A DNA stretch of 64,000 nt from Cyclobacteriaceae bacterium (GTDB lineage Bacteria; Bacteroidota; Bacteroidia; Cytophagales; Cyclobacteriaceae), in assembly GCA_023151255.1 (NCBI GenBank), contig JAKLJG010000007.1, positions 1-64,000 on the forward strand. The letters run 5' to 3'. Made by a program: the position numbers and the translations under genes. This document shows positions 3,744 to 5,370 of this stretch, piece after piece (the first letter of the stretch is position 1; the number at the start of each line of letters is the position of its first letter). The notes under the pieces were generated by a model. The model saw nothing but the letters and a program-made list of their open reading frames with translations. It was not told where the DNA came from and did not search any database.

Positions 3744-4682
3744 TTGAATTACGTCCCTCCCATCTTTCTTTTCAATGGACATCTCGAAACCATCTACCCT
3801 GCCATACTCCGTAACGTAAAACTGCAAACCTACCACCGCGAACGCATCAACACACCGGACGATGATTTTCTCGATCTTGACTGGCTAAAACGAGGCTCGG
3901 AAAAACTGGCCATCATCTCGCATGGGTTAGAAGGAAACACCAGCCGTGCCTATATAAAAGGAATGGCAAGAGCATTTTTCAACCATGGTTTTGATGTTTT
4001 GGCATGGAACTACCGCGGCTGCAGCGAAGAAATGAACCGGCAACTCCGGTTTTATCACAGCGGGGCAACCGATGACCTGGCGGTAGTAATCAATCATGCG
4101 GTTAACCAACAGTATAAAAGTATAAGTCTGATCGGTTTCAGCCTGGGTGGAAATCTTACGCTGAAATACATGGGCGAAACCAGGGAACATCCGGATGTGA
4201 TCCGGAACGCAGTTGTATTTTCCGTGCCATTAGACCTGCACACCAGTTGCCTTAAGATATCACAACCCTCCAACTGGATTTATGCCAATCGCTTCCTGGC
4301 AAGCCTGAAAGAGAAAGTTAAGCACAAAGCCCGGCTGATGCCGGAACTGGATACCCGCGGATTGAGCAAAATAAAAACATTGATGCAATTTGATGACGTT
4401 ATTACCGGGCCATTGCACGGATTCAGTAACGCCTTAGATTATTACACCCGGTGTAGCTCCATAAAATTTATACACAACATTAAAGTCTCTACTCTAATTA
4501 TCAATGCTCTAAACGATCCATTTTTAAGTCGTGAGTGTTTCCCGGTTGATGCATTGAAGCAACACCCATTCGTACAACTAATTACCCCGCAACGTGGCGG
4601 GCACGTAGGCTTCAGCGAATTTGGTTCAAATGGCTTATATTGGTCCGAACGGCAAGCCATTGCCTTTTTAACGCATGATTGA
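3744..4682 (+). CDS. YheT-family alpha/beta hydrolase
   Basis: 312 residues, the usual length for the YheT/ABHD1-3 family. The N-terminus has the family NGHLETIYPA motif. The nucleophile elbow GFSLGG places Ser133 as nucleophile; NALNDPF (about residue 253) supplies the acid and RGGHVGF (about 288) the catalytic His. There is no signal peptide, so it is probably cytoplasmic or membrane-peripheral. Family members are carboxylesterases or lipases of poorly known substrate. The start is a TTG at 3744; the family motif begins only ten residues in, so little can be missing. The last 8 bases overlap the SRAP gene, suggesting cotranscription and coupled translation. Confidence 0.85.
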   Translation: MNYVPPIFLFNGHLETIYPAILRNVKLQTYHRERINTPDDDFLDLDWLKRGSEKLAIISHGLEGNTSRAYIKGMARAFFNHGFDVLAWNYRGCSEEMNRQLRFYHSGATDDLAVVINHAVNQQYKSISLIGFSLGGNLTLKYMGETREHPDVIRNAVVFSVPLDLHTSCLKISQPSNWIYANRFLASLKEKVKHKARLMPELDTRGLSKIKTLMQFDDVITGPLHGFSNALDYYTRCSSIKFIHNIKVSTLIINALNDPFLSRECFPVDALKQHPFVQLITPQRGGHVGFSEFGSNGLYWSERQAIAFLTHD

Positions 4683-5370
4683 ACGCTACAGTTTATCCGC
4701 CCCGGCAACTACCCTGAGCCAACGATTTGCTGCCGATGTACCCGAATTTTATAAACCACGGTACAATGCCGGCCCAACCCAACTTCTGCCGGCAATAACC
4801 AATACATCGCCCCAAGGGCTTTCCGTGTTCTACTGGGGCCGGCCGCCCAAAGCAGCCGGTAACAAGCCATTGAGTGAACGGATTATAAACGTAAAACTTG
4901 AAAACCTGCTTGACCGACCGATGTTGCAAAAGGCCTTATTTAAAACCCGGTGCATCATCCCTGCCGATGGATTCTACGCGTGGAAAAAAATTGGTAAGAA
5001 ATCAATTGTACCTCACCGGTTTGTAACCGATCAACCGCTTTTCTCCATGGCCGGATTTTGGGAGGAATTTGAAGACGAAGATGGGAGCATGCTTCATACT
5101 TTTGCCCTTATTACAACAACAGCCAACGAACTGGTGGCCACCGTTACCGACCGGATGCCGGTTATCCTTACACCAGAAAGTGAAAAAATATGGCTGAGCA
5201 GAGAGGCTGATGAAATTGTTTTACTCAGTCAGTTGGTAACCTACCCGGCTGCCGCCATGAATCATTACACTGTTTCACCACGTATTCTTGACAGCCGAAT
5301 TGATGTCCCCTCCTTACTCACTCCCACACCTCCGGCCGACCAGCATGGAAATCTTACACTGTTTGATTAG
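4675..5370 (+). CDS. SRAP (YedK/HMCES) family protein lacking catalytic residues
   Basis: 231 residues with the SRAP fold signature: an RYS start, PRYNAGPTQLLP, YWGRPP, RCIIPADGF and DRMPVIL. Canonical members trap abasic sites in single-stranded DNA through a Cys at position 2 and use Asn, Glu and His residues. Here position 2 is Ile (MIERYS, not MCGRYS), the GFYEW Glu is Ala102, and the His of the IHDRMP motif is Thr158. Only the Asn (Asn72) remains. A stop codon (TAA at 4669-4671) lies two codons upstream of the ATG in frame, so no longer form with a Cys can be hidden. Aromatic and proline positions of the DNA-binding face look intact. It probably binds DNA without forming the crosslink, but that is inference. 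It overlaps the YheT gene by 8 bases. Confidence 0.85.
   Translation: MIERYSLSAPATTLSQRFAADVPEFYKPRYNAGPTQLLPAITNTSPQGLSVFYWGRPPKAAGNKPLSERIINVKLENLLDRPMLQKALFKTRCIIPADGFYAWKKIGKKSIVPHRFVTDQPLFSMAGFWEEFEDEDGSMLHTFALITTTANELVATVTDRMPVILTPESEKIWLSREADEIVLLSQLVTYPAAAMNHYTVSPRILDSRIDVPSLLTPTPPADQHGNLTLFD

Follow-up and report, generated by a model that had tools for sequence, protein, structure and literature searches.

SRAP proteins such as YedK and HMCES are the closest described relatives of the protein reported here, and the demands of their crosslinking chemistry have been dissected in YedK, in which the stable crosslink does not form without the Cys2 thiol, Glu105 is second in importance only to Cys2, and the reaction of the H160A variant is at least 10-fold slower (PMC9436759). 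Cys2 of the family has been termed "absolutely conserved" (PMC3765255) and "invariant" (PMC9436759). The window analysed here is a 64,000-nucleotide stretch of DNA from a Cyclobacteriaceae bacterium (contig JAKLJG010000007.1, assembly GCA_023151255.1), in which a plus-strand gene at positions 4675-5370 encodes a SRAP (HMCES/YedK-fold) protein of 231 AA residues, followed by a TAG stop codon. Its translation reads MIERYS...GFYAWKK...VTDRMPV...QHGNLTLFD. A first-pass annotation had proposed that Cys, Glu and His of the active site are replaced in this protein and that Asn is kept, and this was borne out when the translation was aligned to canonical orthologues and, by means of PDB searches, to YedK. 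Ile2 (codon 4678-4680) stands at the position of the catalytic Cys2, Ala102 (GCG, 4978-4980) at that of YedK Glu105 and Thr158 (ACC, 5146-5148) at that of YedK His160, all on the plus strand; of the residues expected in a crosslinking SRAP, the equivalent of Asn75 is present as Asn72 (4888-4890, plus strand), which is retained in 50/50 members of the Cys-less clade described below. The canonical orthologue L061, with Cys2, GFYEW and IHDRMP, aligns over the Cys, Glu and His positions.

The assignment to the family is supported by both sequence and structural modelling. The Pfam SRAP model PF02586 matches residues 1-204 with E = 3e-46, covering model positions 1-211 of 214. An AlphaFold2 model built from a 60-sequence alignment gave a mean pLDDT of 91.2 and a pTM of 0.88, with the C-terminal residues dropping to a pLDDT of 75 and then 47. 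A Foldseek search with this model returned 21 PDB chains at E <= 0.001, every one belonging to the SRAP family and including BT_1218, YedK with and without DNA, and HMCES; the TM-scores against the YedK and HMCES structures are 0.75-0.80. The protein shares with YedK and HMCES the fold, the length and the domain's Asn, Arg and Trp residues, but differs from them in the absence of Cys2, Glu and His, in the expected retention of Met1 and in a C-terminal LTLF tail. The only match in PHROGs was one family of unknown function. Membership of a defence system was considered and rejected, as PADLOC gave no match for the SRAP protein or its neighbour.

Formation of the stable YedK crosslink requires the Cys2 thiol and is strongly dependent on Glu105 and His160 (PMC9436759), so the protein described here is expected not to form such a crosslink. 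A longer start carrying a hidden Cys, which the annotation had also discounted, is ruled out by an in-frame TAA (4669-4671, plus strand), the second codon 5' of the SRAP ATG. Following the methionine aminopeptidase rule, Met1 is expected to stay on in front of Ile2.

No second, canonical SRAP copy was found by a PF02586 search of the source genome (3.17 Mb, 99.9% complete), a check that the first-pass annotation had called for, and the 4675-5370 protein is the sole SRAP of this genome. Restoration of Cys in close relatives, which would point to a single-strain mutation, was also looked for and did not hold: a Cys-less orthologue is present in 16 of the 17 genomes of the genus, and a degenerate SRAP is the lone SRAP in 11 of the 17. 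Extra SRAP copies of other types occur in the genus (L021/L024, L022 and L023), some of them apparently split or truncated fragments. A scan of named genomes gave 80 orthologues with both forms represented, the Cys-less form in Ohtaekwangia, Dawidia, Chryseosolibacter, Pseudochryseolinea, Fulvivirga and many MAGs, and the canonical form in Algoriphagus and Cyclobacterium. Of 119 genomes sampled from the GTDB family, 118 have a SRAP, and a hand count gave about 18 in which the sole SRAP is degenerate. A single-strain mutation or an assembly error is rejected, as the Cys-less form is clade-wide and occurs also in isolates.

Codon models gave an omega of 0.065 for the genus, 0.037-0.066 in six close groups and 0.018-0.028 in most canonical groups; one canonical group, whose tree is very short, gave 0.067. 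Partial saturation of synonymous sites makes the approximately twofold difference from the canonical groups soft. Values near 1, which the first-pass annotation had named as a sign of decay, are excluded. It might be supposed that the gene is a slowly decaying pseudogene, given that every catalytic residue is gone and that omega is perhaps twofold above that of most canonical groups. This is extremely improbable in view of omega values of 0.04-0.07, unbroken frames across dozens of species, isolates among them (Ohtaekwangia koreensis, Dawidia soli and Fulvivirga spp.), and the preservation of both the tail and a length of 230-233 AA residues. Decay is thus rejected by omega, and the view of the first-pass annotation, that selection has kept this variant even though its crosslinking residues are gone, stands: the form is clade-wide, under purifying selection and, in the source genome, the sole SRAP.

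Phylogenetic analysis placed the 4675-5370 protein in a 50-sequence clade (SH-aLRT 97) in which no member has Cys2. The annotation had raised the possibilities that the Ile/Ala/Thr set is conserved and that the three residues were lost together, and neither survived the comparison. Although frequent in the genus, the set is not fixed: close relatives have Val or Leu at position 2, Cys, Gly or Thr at position 102 and Cys or His at position 158, and a fixed new Ile/Ala/Thr site is accordingly rejected. Other members of the clade retain His or Glu, so that the losses were stepwise. The full canonical set is present in 59 of 148 distinct SRAP sequences; the other 89 are degenerate, with more than 50 residue combinations over the five positions checked. 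The order of residue loss differs among lineages, because some keep Cys without Glu and His (CNNLS, CNNAA and CNNLQ) and others keep Glu without Cys (SNNEH and FNNET). In a wider tree, several changes are needed among Cytophagales sequences, at least two of them forced by well-supported branches, in trees that come from a short search and lack support on many inner branches. A second Cys-less clade (L301-L311 and L321; SH-aLRT 99), from genomes of a single family belonging to a different class of the phylum, is separate in this tree. Its proteins lack Cys, Glu and His (MKRYVL...GFYKWKE...TMP) and have their own conserved end around QPIPKLRDED in place of an LF tail; they have no hydrolase neighbour, and in some genomes they are the lone SRAP.

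Comparison of the 50 columns that are near-invariant in active SRAPs revealed which parts of the protein are still held. The Cys-less clade keeps the canonical residue at positions 2, 102 and 158 in 0, 6 and 12% of members, respectively, and positions 3 and 73, sequence neighbours of catalytic ones, are relaxed too. R4, N31, G55, N72, E76, R92, C93, P113, R115, W129, F143, P162 and W173 are kept in 100%, and W103 is essentially fixed; Arg160 is likewise kept, together with Trp103, Glu76, Asn72 and Arg4. The suggestion of a changed chemistry fares poorly here, as positions 2, 102 and 158 are among the most variable of those invariant in active SRAPs. Because the catalytic positions vary freely within the clade, it is likely that the crosslinking chemistry was lost and not replaced.

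A replacement activity can nevertheless be envisaged, in which a free alpha-amine or another side chain provides an AP-lyase or other reaction. The YedK C2A variant has lyase activity through its N-terminal amine, which drops 25-fold without Glu105 (PMC9436759). Both Glu and His are gone here, Met1 is expected to remain, and no new invariant polar residue has appeared at the catalytic positions of the clade, which makes such an activity very unlikely. Another possibility is that abasic sites in single-stranded DNA are protected non-covalently and reversibly within the SRAP pocket. The retention of Asn72, Glu76, Trp103, Arg4 and Arg160 would fit such shielding, as would the finding that the E105Q and H160Q proteins of YedK with a blocked Cys2 still bind DNA (PMC9436759). 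Against it, positions 2, 3, 73, 102 and 158 vary freely, Met1 before Ile2 would place an extra residue in the pocket, and Asn72 has been lost in other dead lineages; the relaxed positions 3 and 73 would speak against specific recognition of an abasic site. We consider this explanation unlikely, if worth keeping in mind. Several other dead SRAP lineages lack Asn72, Glu76 and Arg160, which also weakens a general DNA-binding role.

Directly upstream of the SRAP gene lies a plus-strand gene at 3744-4682 encoding a YheT-like alpha/beta hydrolase, the 3' end of which shares 8 bases (ATGATTGA) with the start of the SRAP gene. The nearest NCBIfam model is PRK10985, with a score below the cut-off of that model, and the nucleophile-elbow and His motifs are retained. 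The hydrolase is a conserved partner: 111 of 124 loci have it directly upstream of the SRAP gene, regardless of whether the SRAP active site is intact, and in the two main clades examined this holds for 34/34 Cys-less and 29/29 canonical loci. Many Cys-less loci have 4- or 8-base gene overlaps, and the remaining neighbourhood differs between Cys-less and canonical loci. The same two genes adjoin each other in a further family of the order (L225, L226, L230, L239 and L242). This conserved adjacency supports the orthology of the SRAPs as judged from gene order. The canonical orthologues of Algoriphagus and Cyclobacterium (MCGRYS...GFYEW...IHDRMP...GNYTLFG) share with the protein in the window the position 3' of the hydrolase, about 48% identity and the DQxGN tail, but have intact catalytic residues and end in GNYTLFG where GNLTLFD is found here.

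The adjacency also suggests a functional link between the two proteins. It has been considered that the SRAP fold could partner or regulate the hydrolase, a role for which the DNA chemistry would be dispensable. The near-constant pairing in otherwise different neighbourhoods and the gene overlaps favour such a role, as do the occurrence of the pair in a second family and the retained motifs of the hydrolase. However, the argument is one of gene adjacency with no fusion seen, and the second Cys-less clade does not adjoin a hydrolase; a role as partner to, or control on, the hydrolase is judged improbable, though not far-fetched.

The most constrained stretch of the protein is its C-terminal tail, DQHGNLTLFD (5338-5367, plus strand), a candidate sliding-clamp-binding peptide. 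It coincides with the low-confidence end of the AlphaFold2 model. The tail consensus of the clade is DQxGN(L/Y)TLF: D222, G225, N226, T228, L229 and F230 are identical in 50/50 Cys-less and 44/44 canonical clade members, Q223 is found in all but one (49/50 in the Cys-less clade), and position 227 is Leu in 50/50 Cys-less members and Tyr in canonical members. The tail persists even in degenerate lineages without Asn72 and Glu76. QLxLF is the consensus of C-terminal peptides that bind the sliding clamp (beta/DnaN) (PMC4549789). The tail resembles these peptides, and the HQISLFD motif of DinB from the same genome, in carrying a hydrophobic LxLF at its very C-terminal end, but differs in having Asn in place of Gln at position 1, and binding is a prediction. 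An LF or IF ending occurs in 30 of 54 SRAPs outside the orthologous group, which are not phylogenetically independent, compared with 21 of 1009 neighbouring ORFs (p = 6e-30). Among these endings are QLSLFE, QQLGLF, QLKLFD and QLDLF, several of them exact QLxLF. In canonical SRAPs (L256, L190, L146, L161, L245 and others), the C-terminus is very often an exact or closely similar clamp motif (QLSLFE, QQLGLF, QLKLFD, QLDLF or QGSLF). A description of clamp motifs at the ends of bacterial SRAPs was not found in the literature searched.

Docking of the tail on the sliding clamp is a supported guess from these sequence patterns. The Asn at the position of the consensus Gln, and the Tyr at position 2 of the motif in canonical relatives, make the match imperfect, and the tail may alternatively be conserved because it packs against the domain. 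The absence of an LF tail from the second Cys-less clade indicates that some dead SRAPs do without one.

We propose that the Cytophagales ancestor may have possessed an ordinary crosslinking SRAP encoded beside the YheT-like hydrolase. The chemistry provided by the Cys2 nucleophile and by Glu and His in acid-base catalysis would then have ceased to be needed in the lineage, freeing these positions, with purifying selection presumably holding the fold, the C-terminal tail and the majority of the basic and aromatic residues. The xLTLF peptide would dock on the beta sliding clamp and bring the SRAP to the replication fork, where the kept surface (Arg4, Asn72, Glu76, Trp103, Arg115 and Arg160) may bind single-stranded or junction DNA, the bound protein serving transiently as a cap or competitor, with no thiazolidine crosslink formed. 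That the protein is a pseudoenzyme of the SRAP family, probably acting non-covalently at the fork through a clamp-docking tail, is close to an even call, tilted slightly towards doubt. A broader statement is offered tentatively, with the chances leaning against it as a whole: SRAPs would have lost the crosslinking chemistry at least twice in Bacteroidota and persisted as selected pseudoenzymes, the output in Cytophagales would be clamp docking by the C-terminal peptide combined with non-covalent DNA binding, and many bacterial SRAPs would use such a clamp peptide.

No earlier description of a Cys-less SRAP clade was found in the literature searched, which had subscription journals mostly outside its scope. 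The Cys-less family apparently has a second, non-crosslinking job. A large natural Cys-less clade that is under selection, and often supplies the lone SRAP of the cell, suggests that a function of the SRAP fold is separable from crosslinking. Its members may be regarded as natural separation-of-function variants, which allow one to ask which SRAP action at the fork needs the covalent bond, and the clamp-like tails suggest a possible route by which bacterial SRAPs reach the fork.
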